Of a stretch of DNA of 25,744 bases, positions 13,757 through 23,045 are shown piece after piece. Origin of the DNA: an uncultured Oscillospiraceae bacterium. Its GTDB lineage: Bacteria; Bacillota; Clostridia; Oscillospirales; Oscillospiraceae. Under the pieces are notes generated by a model. It made no database searches and was not told the DNA's origin. It worked only from the letters and a program-made list of their open reading frames with translations. A program made the translations under genes and the position numbers. The stretch's first letter is position 1. Each line of letters opens with the position of its first letter. The DNA lies in contig CAKTIM010000031.1 in the NCBI GenBank assembly GCA_934565795.1, forward strand, positions 1-25,744, in the 5' to 3' direction.

Positions 13757-14386
13757 ATGAATGCCCGCTGGCAGGATACGCCTGCCGCCGTGTTCCTGCG
13801 GCTCCTGGCTGACCTGATGATCGTCAACCTGCTGTCGCTGATCTGTTCCCTCGGCGTCGTTACCATCGGCGCGTCCCTGACGGCGATGTATACCGTCCTG
13901 TTCCATCGCCAGCGGGATGAGGGAATGGTGAATGCCACCAAGACATTCTTCCAGGCATTTGCCAAAAATTTCTGGAAGGCCACCGCCCTGGAGCTGGTGC
14001 TGGCTGCGCTGCTGCTGGTGGCCGGTGTGGACTTCTGGTATGCCGCGTCCATCCCCAAGCCGGGCAGCGTCGTGTTTACCGTGGTTGCAGTTGTGATCGC
14101 GTTCCTGGCCCTGGTGGTTTTCGTGATGGCCTTTCCCCAGCTGGCGGTTTACAGCAACAGTGTGAAGAACTATCTGAAGAATGGCTTTGTGCTGTTTATG
14201 TGCGCCCCCCATGCGCTGCTGCTTTCCGCCGCTGCCTGGGCTGCCCCCTGGGTGCTGGCCTATATCGAGCCGGAGGTGATCGTCCGCTTTGGCGTGATGT
14301 ACCTCCTGTGGGGCTTCGCGTTCCCGGCCTATGCCACGGTCAGGCTGCTGGGCAAGGTGTTCCAGAAAACAAAACAGGACGGATAA
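13757..14386 (+). CDS. YesL/DUF624-family membrane protein
   Basis: Membrane protein of 209 residues with about four to five TM segments, matching the YesL (DUF624) family through an N-terminal LLADLMIVNLLSLICSLGVV, the GASLTAMYTVLF motif and the FFQAFAKNFWKA segment. YesL proteins occur in Firmicutes next to ABC transporters for plant or host glycans; their biochemical role is not established. It begins three bases after the permease stop, so it belongs to the transport operon. GAAGGAG precedes the ATG. Confidence 0.88.
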   Translation: MNARWQDTPAAVFLRLLADLMIVNLLSLICSLGVVTIGASLTAMYTVLFHRQRDEGMVNATKTFFQAFAKNFWKATALELVLAALLLVAGVDFWYAASIPKPGSVVFTVVAVVIAFLALVVFVMAFPQLAVYSNSVKNYLKNGFVLFMCAPHALLLSAAAWAAPWVLAYIEPEVIVRFGVMYLLWGFAFPAYATVRLLGKVFQKTKQDG

Positions 14387-14404
14387 CTTCATCCCACTTT
14401 CTAC

Positions 14405-14439
14405 CAGCGGGCGGCAGCAGGGAATGCTGCCGCCCGCTG
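14405..14439 (+). terminator. Hairpin after the YesL gene
   Basis: Perfect 15-base arms, CAGCGGGCGGCAGCA (14405-14419) and TGCTGCCGCCCGCTG (14425-14439), around GGGAA. There is no T tract, so it may act as an mRNA 3' stabiliser or a weak terminator, leaving partial readthrough to the GH3 gene. Confidence 0.65.
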
Positions 14440-14503
14440 TGTATAGGGAACCTCTGAATAAATCGTCTGCGGCTGAGCAGCGGATCTTTTTCCCCAGCCG
14501 CGC

Positions 14504-14551
14504 AGTATCAAAAGTGGGAAATATATACAGTATTCCTCCACTTTTGATACT
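14504..14551. repeat. Large inverted repeat in the GH3 leader
   Basis: Perfect 14-base arms AGTATCAAAAGTGG (14504-14517) and CCACTTTTGATACT (14538-14551) with a 20-base AT-rich loop. A smaller dyad AATTGAA (14612-14618) and TTCAATT (14635-14641) follows. The gap from 14387 to 14693 holds no gene. I could not settle on a promoter in it. The large dyad could be a regulator site, an RNA hairpin or a dispersed repeat. Confidence 0.6.
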
Positions 14552-14693
14552 TTCATCTGGCGAAAAATCTCTCGCTGTCAGCTCTTGCCGATTTAATCAG
14601 AGCTTCCATAGAATTGAATGGTTCGTCCATACAGTTCAATTTTGTAACCCAATCATATGGACAAATAGTCGCACAAAAGGAAGGAAGAGCATT

Positions 14694-16784
14694 ATGAATC
14701 GTGCGGAAGCAAGGAAAAAGGCCGAGGCGCTGGTTGCGCAGATGGATGTGCTGGAGGCAGCCGCCCAGCTGCGCTATGATGCCCCCGCGCTGGATCGGCT
14801 GCATATTCCTGAATATAACTGGTGGAACGAGGCGCTTCACGGCGTGGCCCGGGCGGGCGTTGCCACCAGCTTCCCCCAGGCCATCGGCATGGCCGCCGCC
14901 TTCGACCCGGACATGGTGGAGCAGCTGGGCGATATCGCCGCCACCGAGGGGCGGGCGAAGTACAACGCCCTGTCCGGGAAGGACGACCGGGATATCTACA
15001 AGGGGCTGACCTTCTGGTCGCCCAACATCAATATTTTCCGCGACCCCCGCTGGGGGCGGGGCCATGAGACCTACGGCGAGGATCCCTACCTCACCACCCA
15101 GCTGGGCCTTGCCTACATCCGGGGGCTTCAGGGCAGCGGGGAATTTCTGAAATCCGCCGCCTGCGCCAAGCACTTTGCCGTCCACTCCGGCCCGGAGGCT
15201 GAGCGGCATCATTTTGACGTTCACCCCAGCAAAAAGGACATGGCGGAGACCTACCTCCCCGCCTTTGAGGCTGCGGTAAAGCAGGGCAATGTGGAGGCCG
15301 TCATGGGCGCGTACAACGCGGTCAACGGCTATCCCTGCTGCGGAAGCCCGGAGCTGCTGCGCCACTACCTGCGGGAGGAGTGGGGCTTCCAGGGCCATGT
15401 GGTCTCCGACTGCTGGGCAATCAATGATTTCCATGAGCATCACCATTTCACCGATACCCCCGCCGAGTCCAGCGCCGCCGCACTGAAGGCGGGCACCGAC
15501 CTGAACTGCGGCTGCACCTATCGCTGCCTGATTACGGCCCTGGCCCAGAAGCTGATCAGCGAGGATGATATCCGCCGCGCCGCCGTCCGCCTGTTCACCA
15601 CCCGCTACCTGCTGGGCATCATGGATGGTCAGCACACGGATTATGACCGCATCCCCTACAGCGTTGTGGAGTGCAGGGAGCACGTGAGCGCCGCCCTGGA
15701 GGCAGCGGAAAAGAGCATCGTCCTGCTGAAAAACGACGGGATCCTGCCCCTGAACAGGCAGCGCCTGAACGCCATTGCCGTGATCGGCCCCAATGCCAAC
15801 AGCCGCGCCGCTCTGGTGGGCAACTACCACGGCACCTCCTCGCGCTATATCACCGTCCTGGAGGGCATCCAGGATGCGGTGGGCGAGGAAACCCGTGTTT
15901 ACTATTCCGAGGGCTGCCACCTGTTCAAGGATCGGGTGGAAAACCTCGCCCGCCCCGGCGATCGGATCGCGGAGGCCCTGGTGGCGGCGGAGCAGTCCGA
16001 CGTGGTGGTGCTGGTGCTGGGCCTGGACGAGACCCTGGAGGGTGAGGAGGGCGACACCGGCAACGCCGACGCCTCCGGCGACAAGCTCAGCCTGCTGCTG
16101 CCCCAGAGCCAGCGTGACCTGGCCCAGGCGGTGCTGGGCTACGGCAAGCCGGTGATCCTGGCGCTGATGTCCGGCTCCGCCATCGATATCAGCGACATTG
16201 CCCCCCGCTGCGCGGCGGTCGTCCAGCTGTGGTATCCCGGCGCGCGGGGCGGAAAGGCGGCGGCCGATATCCTGTTCGGCAAGCGTTCCCCCTCCGGCAA
16301 GCTACCTGTGACCTTCTACTACCAGCACGCGCTGGAGGAGATGCCGCCCTTTACGGATTACTCCATGCACAACCGCACCTACCGCTACTATACCGGCAAG
16401 CCGCTGTATCCCTTTGGCTACGGCCTGACCTACGGCGACACCCAGGTGCTCAGCGTTTCCGCCGATACGCACCGGGCCAGCGTAAGGGTAATCAACCGCG
16501 GCGCACCCACCGAGGACGTGGTGCAGCTGTATATCAAGGACGCCTCCTCCCCGGACGCCACCACCAACCCCAAGCTCTGCGGCTTCCGCCGCATCCACCT
16601 GGATCGGAATGAGGAAAAGGAAATCCAGATCGACCTGCCCGCCTCCGCCTTCCAGGATTGCAGCGACGAGGGCACATGGCACCCCGGCAGCGGCCAATGG
16701 AACCTCTACGCCTCCTTTGGCCAACCCGACCCCCGCACCCAGGAACTGACCGGCAAACCCGCCGCCCACTGCGTGATCGAATAA
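14694..16784 (+). CDS. Glycoside hydrolase family 3 beta-glucosidase/beta-xylosidase
   Basis: Enzyme of 696 residues that removes terminal sugars from beta-linked oligosaccharides. The N-terminal TIM-barrel domain shows FRDPRWGRGHETYGEDP (115-131), the CAKHFAVHSG segment (157-166) and the nucleophile D239 in HVVSDCWAINDF; SDC with a following AI is frequent in xylosidase-type members. Next come the alpha/beta sandwich (about 340-570, SIVLLKND and VIGPNAN, GEEGD) and a fibronectin-III-like C-terminal domain (about 600-670). No signal peptide, so it is cytoplasmic and acts on sugars imported by the transporter just upstream. Start at ATG 14694 with AAGGAAG upstream; the open frame extends further but into the leader palindromes. 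Confidence 0.93.
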   Translation: MNRAEARKKAEALVAQMDVLEAAAQLRYDAPALDRLHIPEYNWWNEALHGVARAGVATSFPQAIGMAAAFDPDMVEQLGDIAATEGRAKYNALSGKDDRDIYKGLTFWSPNINIFRDPRWGRGHETYGEDPYLTTQLGLAYIRGLQGSGEFLKSAACAKHFAVHSGPEAERHHFDVHPSKKDMAETYLPAFEAAVKQGNVEAVMGAYNAVNGYPCCGSPELLRHYLREEWGFQGHVVSDCWAINDFHEHHHFTDTPAESSAAALKAGTDLNCGCTYRCLITALAQKLISEDDIRRAAVRLFTTRYLLGIMDGQHTDYDRIPYSVVECREHVSAALEAAEKSIVLLKNDGILPLNRQRLNAIAVIGPNANSRAALVGNYHGTSSRYITVLEGIQDAVGEETRVYYSEGCHLFKDRVENLARPGDRIAEALVAAEQSDVVVLVLGLDETLEGEEGDTGNADASGDKLSLLLPQSQRDLAQAVLGYGKPVILALMSGSAIDISDIAPRCAAVVQLWYPGARGGKAAADILFGKRSPSGKLPVTFYYQHALEEMPPFTDYSMHNRTYRYYTGKPLYPFGYGLTYGDTQVLSVSADTHRASVRVINRGAPTEDVVQLYIKDASSPDATTNPKLCGFRRIHLDRNEEKEIQIDLPASAFQDCSDEGTWHPGSGQWNLYASFGQPDPRTQELTGKPAAHCVIE

Positions 16785-16791
16785 AAGCCCT

Positions 16792-16815
16792 TGGCTCCCC
16801 ATCCTTGGGGAGCCA
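16792..16815 (+). terminator. Hairpin after the GH3 gene
   Basis: Arms TGGCTCCCC (16792-16800) and GGGGAGCCA (16807-16815). No T tract follows. The sequence also resembles the arms of repeat block C, so it may be a repeat fragment serving as a transcript end. Confidence 0.55.
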
Positions 16816-16852
16816 GGCCTACGAAAAATGCGGCCCCGGCCCCAAAAAACGC

Positions 16853-16881
16853 TTTACAATTCCTTTGAAGTTTGATATACT
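16853..16881 (+). promoter_or_regulatory. Promoter of the manganese riboswitch transcript
   Basis: TTTACA (16853-16858), 17 bases, TATACT (16876-16881). Transcription is expected near 16888, which is the first base of the riboswitch P1 stem. The fit between promoter and RNA start supports both calls. Confidence 0.75.
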
Positions 16882-16887
16882 CGCCCT

Positions 16888-17032
16888 GATGAAAGGGAGT
16901 AAAGGGCAGCCTCCTGGCGTTGCGGGCCGGGGGACTGCTGCATGGCAGCGTCATCACGGCAGGAATGCCCGATGCCATGTGTTCGCTTGAGACTTTTGTC
17001 GCAGACAGAGTGCTGTGGCAAGAGTCTTTTTT
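16888..17032 (+). ncRNA. yybP-ykoY-type Mn2+ riboswitch with transcription terminator
   Basis: The RNA fits the yybP-ykoY class. P1 pairs GATGAAAG (16888-16895) with CTTTTGTC (16993-17000), followed by the conserved GGGAGTA. One arm is closed by CTCCTGGC with GCCGGGGG. The other pairs CATGGCA (16941-16947) with TGCCATG (16973-16979), enclosing the conserved GCGTCATCAC, GGCA-GGAA-TGCC and CGA. The 3' side carries the typical GAGACTTTT. The terminator GACTTTTGTCGCAG (16991-17004) with CTGTGGCAAGAGTC (17013-17026) and six T reuses the 3' strand of P1, so Mn2+ binding should block termination: an ON switch. Alignment was made from memory of the known family fold. Confidence 0.85.
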
Positions 17033-17073
17033 CTTGCCTCGGCGGAAATATATCTTTGAGAGGAAGGAAAAAC

Positions 17074-18204
17074 ATGAATTTTTTAAACGCATTCGTTGGT
17101 TTGTTTTCCAATTTTGGGAACCTGACCTGGCAGATGGTGGTGATGTGGGGGATCGGGGCCTTGCTCATCTATCTTGCCATCGCCAAAAAGATGGAGCCGA
17201 GCCTGCTGCTGCCCATGGGCTTCGGGGCCATCCTGGTCAACCTGCCCCTCTCCGGCGCCATTACGCAGGGGGCGGTCATTGGCCCCGTCTCCGCGCTGTT
17301 TGAAGCGGGCATGTCCAATGAGCTGTTTCCGCTGCTGCTGTTCATCGGCATCGGGGCCATGATCGATTTTGGCCCGCTGCTGGAAAAGCCGTGGCTGATG
17401 CTCTTCGGCGCGGCGGCGCAGTTCGGCATCTTTTTCACCCTGTTTCTGGCGGGCTTCTTCTTCGACCTGCGGGACGCCGCCTCCATCGCCGTGATCGGCG
17501 CGGCGGACGGCCCCACCGCCATCTTTGTGGCAAACACCCTCCATTCCCGGTATCTGGGGGCCATTATGGTGGCGGCCTACAGCTACATGGCGCTGGTGCC
17601 CATCGTTCAGCCGCCGGTGATCCGGCTGCTGACCACCAAAAAGGAGCGCCTGATCCGAATGCCCTACCAAAAGTCCAGCGTCAGCCGCCTGACCAAGATC
17701 CTGTTCCCCATCGTGGTCACCGTGATCGCGGGCATGGTCGCCCCGTCCAGCGTGGCGCTGGTGGGCTTTCTGATGTTCGGCAATCTGCTGCGGGAGTGCG
17801 GCGTCCTGAACGCGCTGAGCGAGACGGCTCAGAACGTGCTGACCAACCTCATCACCATTGTGCTGGGCCTGACCGTGGCCGGGCAGATGACCGCCGACAA
17901 ATTCGTCCGCCCGGATACCCTGTTGATCCTTGCGCTGGGGCTGGTGGCCTTTGTCTTTGATACGGCGGGCGGGGTGCTGTTTGCAAAGCTGCTCAATCTC
18001 TTCCTGCCGGAGGGCAAGAAGCTGAACCCCATGATCGGCGCGGCGGGCATTTCCGCCTTCCCCATGAGCGGCCGTGTGGTCAATAAGATGGGCTTGCAGG
18101 AGGATAATCAGAATTTTCTGCTGATGTATTCCATCAGCATCAACGTTTCGGGCCAGATCGCCTCCGTGATCGCAGGCGGCCTGATCCTGACCCTGATGGG
18201 ATAG
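17074..18204 (+). CDS. OadB/GcdB-like sodium-translocating decarboxylase beta subunit
   Basis: Integral membrane protein of 376 residues with about nine to eleven hydrophobic segments. Family members are the Na+-pumping beta subunits of oxaloacetate, methylmalonyl-CoA and glutaconyl-CoA decarboxylases. Key features are present: the conserved aspartate D145 in GAADGPTAIF, the MIGAAGISAFPMSGRVV segment (320-336) and N357 in ISINVSGQIAS. Length is at the lower end of the family. GAGAGGAAGG precedes the ATG. No alpha subunit or biotin carrier is encoded nearby, only a tiny gamma-like protein downstream. The gene is controlled by the Mn2+ riboswitch, which normally governs manganese export genes, so a role in metal ion transport is possible. 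Confidence 0.9.
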   Translation: MNFLNAFVGLFSNFGNLTWQMVVMWGIGALLIYLAIAKKMEPSLLLPMGFGAILVNLPLSGAITQGAVIGPVSALFEAGMSNELFPLLLFIGIGAMIDFGPLLEKPWLMLFGAAAQFGIFFTLFLAGFFFDLRDAASIAVIGAADGPTAIFVANTLHSRYLGAIMVAAYSYMALVPIVQPPVIRLLTTKKERLIRMPYQKSSVSRLTKILFPIVVTVIAGMVAPSSVALVGFLMFGNLLRECGVLNALSETAQNVLTNLITIVLGLTVAGQMTADKFVRPDTLLILALGLVAFVFDTAGGVLFAKLLNLFLPEGKKLNPMIGAAGISAFPMSGRVVNKMGLQEDNQNFLLMYSISINVSGQIASVIAGGLILTLMG

Positions 18205-18219
18205 GAGGGAGGTAACGCA

Positions 18220-18348
18220 ATGCTGCATCTTTCGTCGTGGAGGGTCACGCTGCCCATGATGGCTGCCGGGATGGCCGGAACCGTTCTTGTCATTGGCGTC
18301 ATCGTGCTTGCCGTGATGCTGCTGAACAAGCTGACCCGCAAAAAGTAA
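18220..18348 (+). CDS. 42-residue single-pass membrane protein, OadG/gamma-like
   Basis: Very small gene found by reading the frame after the beta subunit: 42 residues, a hydrophobic helix at about 18-36 (GMAGTVLVIGVIVLAVMLL) and a basic end NKLTRKK. GGAGGGAGG lies just upstream, and the gene begins 15 bases after the beta-subunit stop. Position, size and topology fit a minimal OadG/gamma subunit, which holds the beta subunit to its partner; the soluble tail of classic gamma subunits is missing. It is easily overlooked by gene finders. Confidence 0.75.
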   Translation: MLHLSSWRVTLPMMAAGMAGTVLVIGVIVLAVMLLNKLTRKK

Positions 18349-18363
18349 TTTTCCGACACAACA

Positions 18364-18406
18364 AAGCCCCATGCCCGTTCACCCTCGCGGTGCGGACATG
18401 GGGCTT
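18364..18406. terminator. Bidirectional terminator between convergent operons
   Basis: Arms AAGCCCCATG (18364-18373) and CATGGGGCTT (18397-18406), with inner pairing of CCG to CGG. It lies between the gamma-like gene (+) and cobQ (-). On the minus strand the stem runs into TTTGTTGTG, a fair T tract for cobQ. Confidence 0.75.
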
Positions 18407-18433
18407 GATGTTTAGGTGGTGCGCCGGAGGCGG

Positions 18434-19897
18434 TCATACCTCCCGGTTGAGAACCCTGTAGACAAAATCCATATTCAGCCCGCCCCGGACGGCGTCGGCA
18501 AGGCGGTCGTACTGCGCCTGCTTGTAGCGCTCCGGGTCGAAGTCGGTGAGCCTGCCGGGATCGATGCCCTTTTTGGCGGCCAGACCGCGCACCAGGGCCT
18601 GGGCGATGCCCACGCCGTCGAAGATGCCGTGGATATAGCTGCCGTAGACGCTGCCGTTGCACTGGATGGCGTCGCCCTGGCGCTGGCTGCGGCCCATATG
18701 AATTTCATAGCCGGTGTAGCTCAGGCCCGTCAGGCCATGAAGCGCGCCGGGGATTTCGCCGAAGGTACCGTGCACCTGCCGCTGCACCTTTTCCCCCGCA
18801 AACACCGTATCCATATCCAGCAGCCCCATGCCCTGAACCTCTGTCACCCCGGCGGCTTCCACCCCCTGCGGGTCGCGGATGGAGGTACCGAGCATCTGAT
18901 AGCCGCCGCAGATGCCGAAGAGGATGCAGCCCCTGGCGACCTGCTGGCAGATGGCCGCCTCCAGGCCGGACTGGCGCAGCCAGAGCAGGTCGGCAATGGT
19001 GCTCTTGGTGCCGGGCAGGAGGATCATATCCGGCTGGTGCAGCTGTTCCGGCCGCTGGATATAGCGCACGGACACATTGTCAAACCGCTCCAGGGGGGAT
19101 ACGTCGGTGAAGTTGGAGATGCGGGGCAGCTTGATCACCGCAATATCGATGTCCTTGCGCACGTCCCCGGTCTGGAACCGGGTGGACAGGCTGTCCTCGT
19201 CGTCGATGTCCACGTGGACGTAGGGCACCACTCCCGCCACGGGCACGCCGCAGATTTTTTCCAGAATGTCAATGCCCGGCTGCAAAATGGCCCGGTCGCC
19301 CCGGAATTTGTTCACGATGGTGCCCTTGACCCGCTTTTGCTCCTGGGGCTCCAGCAGGGCAATGGTGCCGTACAGCTGGGCAAACACGCCGCCCCGGTCG
19401 ATGTCCCCCACCAGCAGCACCGGGGCGTCCACCAGCTCTGCAAGGCCCATGTTTACAATGTCCGTGGCTTTCAGGTTGATCTCCGCCGGACTGCCCGCGC
19501 CCTCAATGACGATGATGTCGTATTCCTGTTCCAGGCTGCGGTAGGCCTCCATCACCGCCGGGATGAAGTCCCGCTTGCGCCGGTAGTATTCCATGGCCCG
19601 CATGTTGCCCTGTACCCGGCCGTTGATGATCACCTGGCTGCCCACATCCGTAGTGGGCTTGAGCAGGATGGGGTTCATCCGCACGTCCGGGGCGATGCCC
19701 GCCGCCTCCGCCTGCACCACCTGGGCCCGGCCCATTTCCGCGCCGCTTGAGGTGATGAAGGAATTGAGCGCCATGTTCTGACTTTTGAAGGGGGCCACCC
19801 GGTAGCCGTCCTGCCGGAAAATGCGGCACAGCCCCGCCGCCAGCAGGCTCTTGCCCGCGTTGGACATGGTGCCCTGGATCATAATGTTTTTAGCCAT
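18434..19897 (-). CDS. cobQ: Cobyric acid synthase
   Basis: Cytoplasmic enzyme of 487 residues that amidates four carboxylates (b, d, e and g) of adenosylcobyrinic diamide with glutamine and ATP, giving adenosylcobyric acid. The N-terminal ATP-binding domain starts [13 protein letters not shown] (P-loop) with KSQNMALNS at 38-46. The C-terminal glutamine amidotransferase domain has the nucleophile C330 in [11 protein letters not shown] and H423 in YIHGIFD. Length is normal. Its ATG lies within the last codons of cobD (seven to eight bases of overlap) with AAGGAG inside that gene, so translation is coupled to cobD. Confidence 0.96.
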
Positions 19898-20945
19898 TGA
19901 GAATCTCCTTTATTGCGTCCAGCAGCCGTTTGTTTTGCTCCGGCAGCCGCACCGCCGTGCGATACCAGCCCGGCCCCAGGCCGGGATAATTGGCGCAGTC
20001 CCGGATTTGCAGCCCCCGCTCCAGCAGCGCCTCGCCCAGGGGCCGGGGGGAGAAGAACAGCAGAAAATTGGCGCGGGAGGGGATTACCGTCAGCCCCAGC
20101 GCCTCCAGCCCCGTCGCCAGCAGCGGCCGCTGGGTGTGGATGATCGCCCGCGCCCGGTCTAAAAATTCCCGCTGCCCCAGAGCGGCCACGCCTGCCGCCT
20201 GGGCGGGCAGGGATACATTCCAGGCCTGGGTGGCGCGGCCCATCTCGGTCAGCAGCGCCGGGCTTGCACACAGGCAGTAGCCCAGCCGCAGCCCCGCCAT
20301 GCCGTAGCTCTTGGTAAAGGCCTTCAATAAAAGCGTCCGCTCGCCGGGCCGCAGGCTCCTTGCCAGGCTCAGCGCCCCGCCCCCCTGGGTCAGATCCAGG
20401 AAGCACTCGTCGATGAACAGGAAGATGCCTTTGCGGGCGCAGATGCCCCGGATATCCTCCAGCAGCGCCGGGTCGATCACCTGCCCGGTGGGATTGTTGG
20501 GGTTGCAGAGCATGAGCAGCTCGCCGTCAAAATTCTCCAGCACGGGCAGGAAGCGCTCCGTCAGGGCGAAACCCTCCGCCTGCGCCAGCGCGTAAATTTC
20601 CGTTTCGCATCCCACCGTCTCCAGCGCGGAGCGATACTCCGAAAAGGAGGGCACGGGCAGCAGCGCCCGCCTCGGCCGCAGCGCGGCGCACAGGGAAAAA
20701 ATCAGTTCCGCCGCCCCGTTGCCGCAGAGCACCCGCTCTGCGGGCACCCCCTCAAATTCCGCAATCGCCCCCACCAGCGCCCGGCAATAGGGATCGGGGT
20801 ACTGGCTCAGCATCGAAAGCGAAGCCTCCACCGCCTCCCGCACCGCCCCCGGCGTCCCCAATGGGTTAATGTTGGCAGAAAAATCAATCTCCACCGCCCT
20901 GGAATAAACCTCCCCCCCATGGGGATTTTGCGCATTGTATAGCAT
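19890..20945 (-). CDS. cobD: Threonine-phosphate decarboxylase (CobD)
   Basis: PLP enzyme of 351 residues, class I/II aminotransferase fold, that decarboxylates L-threonine phosphate to (R)-1-amino-2-propanol phosphate, the linker used for the lower loop of B12. The N-terminal start [24 protein letters not shown] is typical of CobD rather than HisC. The PLP-binding lysine is K212 in [16 protein letters not shown]; the N151-P-T-G motif (NPNNPTGQ) and D179 (FIDECF) are present. The start has GAAAGGATG upstream. No clear promoter was seen between it and the repeat block behind it. It is coupled to cobQ. Confidence 0.9.
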
Positions 20946-21018
20946 ATACCCATCCTTTCTCTCTCACCCAAAACACAGAAATTCCAGCAGCACTCCATTG
21001 AATGGCAAGCCCCTCCCT

Positions 21019-22777: not shown

Positions 22778-22834
22778 AGCCGATTTTCTGCGCCAAAAGC
22801 AGCTGCGCTCCATACTTGCAGAGCCACAGCACAC

Positions 22835-23029
22835 AACCCATCCTTAGCAGTTATCCTGACTTCGCGTATCCCTGGCCGCCGCACCGCCTTCTCAGGAATT
22901 GTTCCCAATGACCGGCTTTCGCCCTGTGCGGCCGCCTCCTCGCTTACAGTGGCGGTACCGTTCGGGATTTGCACCCGATTCCCTATTCTCCCCCAGAATC
23001 CGCGCGACTTTGGGGGCACTAAGATGGTT
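22835..23029 (-). ncRNA. Cobalamin (adenosylcobalamin-type) riboswitch
   Basis: Read on the minus strand, the leader of cbiB contains the hallmark core GGTGCAAATCCC-GAACGG-(TA)-CCGCCACTGTAA near 22979-22945, a GAAAGCCGGTCA segment (about 22924-22913), and near the 3' end the B12-box-like run AAGTCAGGATAACTGCTAAG (about 22862-22843). The ends pair as P1: AACCATCTTAG (23029-23019) with CTAAGGATGGGTT (22847-22835), with two bulges. High B12 should stop transcription of cbiB via a downstream terminator. Confidence 0.93.
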
Positions 23030-23045
23030 ATTTACTTTCCCGTTA

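Follow-up and report, generated by a model that had tools for sequence, protein, structure and literature searches.

A yybP-ykoY-type riboswitch precedes an alpha-free OadB/OadG-like gene pair in gut Clostridia: a candidate manganese export system

Why should an RNA of the manganese-sensing type precede genes that resemble the membrane part of a biotin-dependent decarboxylase Na+ pump? The question is raised by a stretch of 25,744 nucleotides from an uncultured Oscillospiraceae bacterium (GCA_934565795.1, contig CAKTIM010000031.1), hereafter the window. A first-pass annotation had assigned the genes for an OadB homologue and a 42-residue gamma-like protein to the control of a Mn2+ riboswitch, and had offered two readings of the pair, a Mn2+ (or Na+/Mn2+) efflux system or a decarboxylase Na+ pump tuned by manganese. 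Leader, oadB homologue and small ORF lie where it had put them, and the locus comprises the following features.

16853..16881, + strand: promoter TTTACA-17 nt-TATACT, which by the consensus we take to be of the sigma-70 type (sequence)
16889..16998, + strand: yybP-ykoY-type (Mn2+) riboswitch aptamer, a predicted three-way junction without P4 (R1 score, fold, covariation)
16896..16901, + strand: L1, GGAGUA, equivalent to L. lactis G8-A13 including the A-minor base A10 (A10 conservation; PMC6754395, excerpt)
16951..16957, + strand: L3, a seven-nt bulge UCAUCAC with the putative Mn2+ discriminator A at 16953 (conservation; PMC6754395, excerpt)
16989..17032, + strand: predicted intrinsic terminator, hairpin and U-tract (-22.9 kcal/mol)
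17074..18204, + strand: oadB of type b, encoding a 376-aa OAD_beta homologue (Pfam, NCBIfam, tree, residues)
18220..18348, + strand: gene for a 42-aa OadG-related partner that has a single helix and lacks the C-terminal tail for binding alpha (NCBIfam, helix and tail scans)

The promoter sets the transcript start directly 5' of the aptamer, and the structured leader as a whole occupies 16889-17032 of the + strand. As expected of the beta subunit of a decarboxylase Na+ pump, the window OadB matches Pfam OAD_beta (484.9 bits) and NCBIfam TIGR01109 (411 bits); NCBIfam names such proteins 'sodium ion-translocating decarboxylase subunit beta'. The 42-aa protein matched no family in a Pfam scan and reaches 24 bits with NF040909 (OadG_rel_small), one bit short of the cut-off of 25. 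No ORF for an alpha subunit was seen by eye at window positions 14000-21000. An inverted repeat CCCCATG...CATGGGG (about 18366-18406, by eye) separates the pair from the convergent gene and is likely a shared terminator.

Homologous loci were collected by scanning genome contigs with the window OadB protein, and the best 80 of 587 confirmed loci were used. A strict regular expression finds the leader in 35 of these best 80 of 587 and in the window; all 36 matches lie on the coding strand directly 5' of oadB, with none elsewhere in the loci read. Thirty oadB leaders, the window among them, were aligned. Their structure runs P1.1, P1.2, P2, P3.1, the seven-nt L3 bulge and P3.2, with P4 absent; both sides change in 19 of the 25 pairs, and pairing cells amount to 84.9% in the real alignment, 71.1% after shuffling and 32.5-48.2% in slid controls. 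A pairing of GGGAGU with the U-run suggested by RNAalifold was dropped in favour of an L. lactis P1.1-like register, and this register covaries too in rows carrying AAGAG/CUCUU.

A covariance model trained exclusively on these 30 leaders, termed R1, gives 60.8 bits on the window (E 1.5e-13), which is itself one of the training rows. R1 matches 38 of the best 80 of 587 oadB loci in addition to the window, and five out of five additional loci (L081-L085), which are mntP leaders. The E. coli K-12 mntP leader, taken as an outside control, is matched as well (22.3 bits, E 5e-5 in 4 kb). These mntP matches point to shared descent with a known member of the yybP-ykoY class. Among the 44 rows that R1 retrieves (39 oadB leaders and five others) the discriminator A is present throughout, A10 of L1 is conserved in all 43 rows having a letter there, and G8 of L1 is replaced by A in one of 43. 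Excerpts from PMC6754395 place Mn2+ between L1 and L3, describe an A-minor contact formed by A10 of L1, and let N7 of an invariable adenosine touch the metal (A41 of the UCA41AU43UC stretch in L. lactis, and A48 in X. oryzae). The lack of P4 is not a new feature, because the S. pneumoniae mgtA riboswitch, which binds Ca2+ and Mn2+, is likewise described as a three-way-junction yybP-ykoY RNA in a passage of the review PMC9495176. Judged by its letters, the window leader is a yybP-ykoY-type riboswitch, presumably with Mn2+ as ligand, and the first-pass annotation's call of such a leader with conserved loops is borne out by the L1 and L3 letters, the covariation and the match of R1 to the E. coli mntP leader.

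The check by the Rfam model RF00080 which had been proposed for this call failed as worded: the window leader gave no match, neither at the gathering score anywhere on the window nor at E<=10 on 16780-17100 (321 bases). We attribute the miss to the Rfam model, since RF00080 also stays below its cut-off on the mntP and GDT1 leaders of the lineage. None of 30 related genomes (G001-G030) reaches the cut-off of 45 bits; their five best matches, at 21.5-31.1 bits, are every one 5' of mntP (L081, L084, L085, L083 and L082, the last also labelled L183), and the best match before GDT1 in the class has 34.8 bits, again under the cut-off. Of 14 control genomes in the same search, 2 exceed the cut-off. 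The result for the 30 genomes suggests that RF00080 overlooks many of the lineage's Mn2+ riboswitches, and these riboswitches and their regulons are likely under-annotated. Other Rfam riboswitches gave nothing convincing at the window leader in a gathering scan and a scan at E<=10; the latter scan also gave no match to the Na+-I (DUF1646) riboswitch, and this candidate was rejected.

The missing RF00080 match is what one would expect if the leader were an ordinary attenuator and no metal riboswitch at all, but this we regard as highly improbable in view of the metal-site letters in L1 and L3, the covariation, the match to the E. coli mntP leader and a specific set of target genes. The window leader and the yybP-ykoY family of RF00080 have in common the L1 GGAGUA, the seven-nt L3 with its discriminator A, the opposition of P1.1 and terminator, and the targets mntP, P-type ATPase and GDT1; the window leader differs in being missed by RF00080, in lacking P4 and in preceding an OadB gene. 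The leader RNA belongs to a known riboswitch class, of which it is a divergent but otherwise ordinary representative. A second Rfam family, RF02617 (SSRC10, Streptococcus sRNA 10), scores 28-39 bits on several R1 leaders, spanning aptamer and terminator, with its cut-off of 56 unmet throughout (L245, L253, L240, L021, L277, L067, L282, L038 and L075); one of these, the mntP leader L282, is weakly matched by both RF02617 and RF00080. RF02617 is annotated as an sRNA, and the window leader, unlike these, is unmatched by it. RF02617 may be an unrecognised branch of Mn2+ riboswitches.

In which direction would the metal act? The 5' arm of the window terminator includes the 3' strand of P1.1 (16993-16998), so that P1.1 and terminator are mutually exclusive. 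A hairpin with a U-run starts inside the 12 nt at the 3' end of the aptamer in 36 of 39 oadB leaders, that is, in the window and in 35 of the 38 R1-positive loci among the best 80 of 587; in L072, counted here, it touches just the last aptamer base. In the three uncounted leaders the best hairpin lies elsewhere (L021) or none is found by the rule (L022 and L029). In L029 a fitting terminator hairpin is visible by eye. A hairpin start at this place implies competition with the 3' strand of P1.1. According to an excerpt of PMC11087558, in L. lactis Mn2+ stabilises P1.1, which competes there with a terminator that overlaps it. As the terminator takes up the P1.1 3' strand, metal should turn the genes on, and we infer that the window switch is ON with Mn2+. 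Both the re-use of the P1 strand by the terminator, as the first-pass annotation had described it, and the ON direction stand, the latter from the anatomy of the leader.

The company in which the pair is found was examined in a non-random set of 50 genomes, chosen for 37 leader-positive and 13 leader-negative loci. Here R1 gives 78 matches in 41 genomes, and 37 of them precede oadB. Assigned by eye, the remaining 41 precede genes for MntP (18), P-type ATPases (14), Na/Ca exchangers (four, all in Faecalibacterium and Gemmiger) and an SPFH protein (one), or are ambiguous or cut off (four). Looked at in reverse, R1 lies upstream of 18 of 47 MntP genes (MntP at >=111 bits). An MntP gene is present in 46 of the 50 genomes; displacement of MntP by the pair was therefore rejected, and the finding counts among those that weigh against the exporter reading.

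Class-wide, PF03977 is matched in 181 of 245 genomes and R1 at E<=0.001 in at least 138 of 245, a lower bound as 17 candidates were scored per genome. For 100 class-wide R1 matches taken by rank (two matches of G002 and lower ranks left out), the downstream gene was typed with phmmer and a set of reference proteins at E<=1e-6; a handful of the matches are weak or concern gene fragments. P-type ATPases account for 35, Na/Ca exchangers for 21, type b OadB for 19, MntP for 11 and other genes for 14, and there is no type a OadB; since R1 was trained on oadB leaders, the OadB share is a biased estimate. The 14 others comprise, by eye, GDT1 (three), CitMHS/ArsB-like permeases (four), TetR-like proteins (two) and single genes for an RND fusion protein, SPFH, HtpX, KUP and a pectate lyase. 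Pfam confirmed one example each of GDT1, CitMHS, Na_Ca_ex and Mntp. With MntP, GDT1, P-type ATPases and Na/Ca exchangers the pair shares the riboswitch class and the bacterial class, but the protein families are unrelated. The Na/Ca exchanger (PF01699) loci, among them L151, L152, L158, L159 and L240, suggest Na+-coupled Mn2+/Ca2+ export.

Membership in this regulon makes Mn2+ export the simplest assignment, and transport of Mn2+ by the pair is suggested by this association of genes. Instead of or besides Mn2+ the riboswitch might sense Ca2+ or another divalent ion, which the pair would then export; Na/Ca exchangers and P-type cation ATPases are among the targets, and the S. pneumoniae mgtA riboswitch with its two ligands (PMC9495176, in part) offers a precedent. 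As all 44 rows carry the discriminator A, and as MntP and GDT1 stand behind the same RNA, we consider a ligand of this kind quite improbable and retain Mn2+ as the metal.

The OadB proteins behind the riboswitch form a lineage of their own. In a tree of 126 proteins, a clade with support 0.999, here called type b, holds 82 tips (the window, the best 80 of 587 loci, and L227); all 39 riboswitch-associated OadB proteins fall inside this clade, and the 44 other tips include none of them. Excerpts from PMC7274780 on Salmonella OadB assign Na+ binding to Asp203, Ser382 and Asn412, call Glu40 critical and Arg304 and Asn311 important for decarboxylation of carboxyl-biotin, and assign the fold to the CPA superfamily, for which movement as an elevator is proposed. 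Residues were counted in 81 type b and 43 type a sequences. Asp203, Ser382 and Asn412 are conserved in 81 of 81 type b proteins, as are Glu40, Tyr227 and Arg389. Arg304 is lost from 81 of 81 type b proteins; all 43 type a sequences have Arg or Lys at this place. Of the 81 type b proteins, 44 have another residue instead of Asn311, and 37, including the window, keep it. Two residues are newly invariant in type b, Asp296 (Salmonella Gly353), probably in a membrane helix, and Gln361 (Val416), four residues from the Asn412 equivalent; Ser332 (Ala387) is found in 80 of 81. Compared with the beta subunits of OAD, MMD and GCD (Pfam OAD_beta, PDB 6IVA/6IWW), type b thus shows near full-length homology and keeps D203, S382, N412 and Glu40, but forms a separate clade, has lost Arg304, has gained Asp296, Gln361 and Ser332, and its riboswitch-bearing copies lack a nearby alpha gene.

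This last point was counted over the 95 OAD_beta matches of at least 350 bits in the 50 genomes (37 with riboswitch, 58 others), an alpha gene being nearby if PF02436, or PF01039 at >=100 bits, lay on the same contig no more than 6 kb away. By this rule none of the 37 riboswitch oadB genes has an alpha gene nearby, as against 23 of the 58 others (Fisher p 2.6e-6; some MAG contigs end sooner than 6 kb). The first-pass annotation had proposed to look for the same riboswitch before OadB without alpha in other genomes, and this arrangement is found. A type b gene without riboswitch in G025 (L025) has an OADA gene 4.8 kb off. A further OadB of their own is encoded in 32 of the 37 riboswitch genomes. 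In four genomes, all MAGs (G012, G023, G044 and G049), the riboswitch oadB is the sole OadB of at least 350 bits, and neither PF02436 nor PF01039 at >=100 bits was found; pairs of PF01039 matches at 50-73 bits in G023 and G049 are taken for acetyl-CoA carboxylase. The Gemmiger and Faecalibacterium genomes G001-G009, by comparison with the Faecalibacterium MAG G012, which has neither PF02436 nor a long PF01039 gene, all carry both elsewhere in the genome, so an alpha subunit in trans is conceivable in the lineage of the window; the conserved Glu40 leaves room for one, too.

The small partner bears on the same point. In Salmonella, the OadG tail 61-84 is required to hold alpha (PMC7274780, excerpt). 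Type b partners were searched as ORFs of 25-130 aa with a helix at 79 of 81 loci (two were cut). A one-helix ORF of 39-119 aa begins 9-39 nt 3' of oadB in 77 of the 79. In the 76 partners that fit a motif, the helix segment is followed by a median of 4 residues; two outliers carry a second hydrophobic stretch. The alpha-binding gamma tail of the decarboxylase pump complex is, to judge from these lengths, lacking in type b partners. At type a loci a gamma-like ORF is nearby in 29 of 43, with 57-118 residues after the helix, and two of these 29 were scanned: TIGR01195 covers helix and tail in both, one above and one slightly under its cut-off. Like NF040909, the OadG-related small transporter subunit, the type b partners are small one-helix proteins, aligned across the helix; they differ in that six of seven score 13-24 bits and one of seven is unmatched. 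A short partner alone is no marker of type b, as the outgroup L194, whose OadB lies outside type b, is likewise accompanied by a short-tailed ORF, of 47 aa.

Of the two readings first offered, the cation (Mn2+) efflux pair is now favoured and the manganese-tuned decarboxylase pump disfavoured, because type b is a distinct paralog with no alpha nearby, a tail-less gamma and no Arg304. A genuine biotin-dependent decarboxylase Na+ pump with its alpha encoded elsewhere, tuned by Mn2+ for instance in order to supply a Na+ gradient to Na+/Mn2+ exchangers, would account for the retention of D203, S382, N412 and Glu40, for the alpha-type genes in trans in G001-G009, and for the frequent targeting of Na/Ca exchangers by the same riboswitch. 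Metal control of such genes has a parallel: Na+ riboswitches (DUF1646), a different RNA, stand before oxaloacetate decarboxylase genes (PMC9337991, excerpt); at gathering scores the Na+-I riboswitch was absent from the 15 of 42 leader-less type b loci that were scanned. We hold such a pump to be unlikely, since the alpha-binding tail is missing from the partner, Arg304 is gone, none of 37 genes has an alpha nearby and four MAGs have no detected alpha, and since most riboswitch genomes own another OadB and most type a loci a tailed gamma.

We therefore lean towards a Mn2+ ON riboswitch that controls an alpha-free, elevator-type cation exporter pair, with Mn2+ as the most likely cargo. Under this proposal Mn2+ would dock L1 onto L3 and hold P1.1, the overlapping terminator would be blocked, and an excess of Mn2+ would switch on the two-gene operon of type b OadB and tail-less one-helix OadG. 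Without a carboxyltransferase (alpha) subunit, the pair would act as a secondary elevator-type exporter within the Mn2+ regulon, moving most likely Mn2+, possibly Ca2+ too, outward against Na+ or H+, and would work alongside MntP, P-type ATPases, Na/Ca exchangers and GDT1. On a wider claim we are evenly divided: that type b OadB and tail-less OadG form an undescribed bacterial Mn2+ exporter family widespread in gut Clostridia, in which the membrane part of a biotin-driven pump has lost its enzyme, gained a new carboxylate in Asp296 and become a Na+- or H+-coupled Mn2+ antiporter controlled by a Mn2+ riboswitch.

Several observations pull against the exporter reading. Glu40, Arg389 and Tyr227 are kept throughout type b; Arg304Ala lowers the activity of the Salmonella enzyme merely moderately (PMC7274780, excerpt), and the window retains Asn311. 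By R1 the leader is absent from 42 of the 80 type b loci (best 80 of 587), including the near relatives L010 and L011 (L053 has just 216 nt upstream), and L227, in the b clade without riboswitch, retains Arg304. The possible trans alpha in G001-G009 weighs in the same direction, as do the MAG status of all four alpha-less genomes, the short-tailed ORF of L194, and the 14 of 43 type a loci at which the gamma scan gave none or just an unlikely ORF.

No earlier report of a Mn2+ riboswitch before an alpha-free OadB was found in the open-access papers searched; one may stand in the gene lists of the two founding papers of 2015. If the exporter reading is true, one more family would join the few known bacterial Mn2+ exporters, a primary decarboxylase pump would be seen reduced to a secondary transporter, and the alpha-less oadB of Faecalibacterium, Gemmiger and other gut Clostridia would have a role.

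Further observations concern other genes at these loci. The CitMHS/ArsB-like permeases behind the riboswitch (L272, L279, L288 and L296, in four genomes; Pfam for L288) are possible further Mn2+ exporters. R1 matches also precede SPFH genes (L167 and L262) and a small Gly/His-rich ORF (L155), and those at L147 and L149 have no clear downstream gene. At L225 (G046, C204) mntP is immediately preceded, on the same strand, by an OadB gene of type a. The window itself carries a second, ordinary riboswitch of the cobalamin class at 22829-23038 on the - strand (90.4 bits, above gathering), which precedes a run of cobalamin-type genes recognised by eye.
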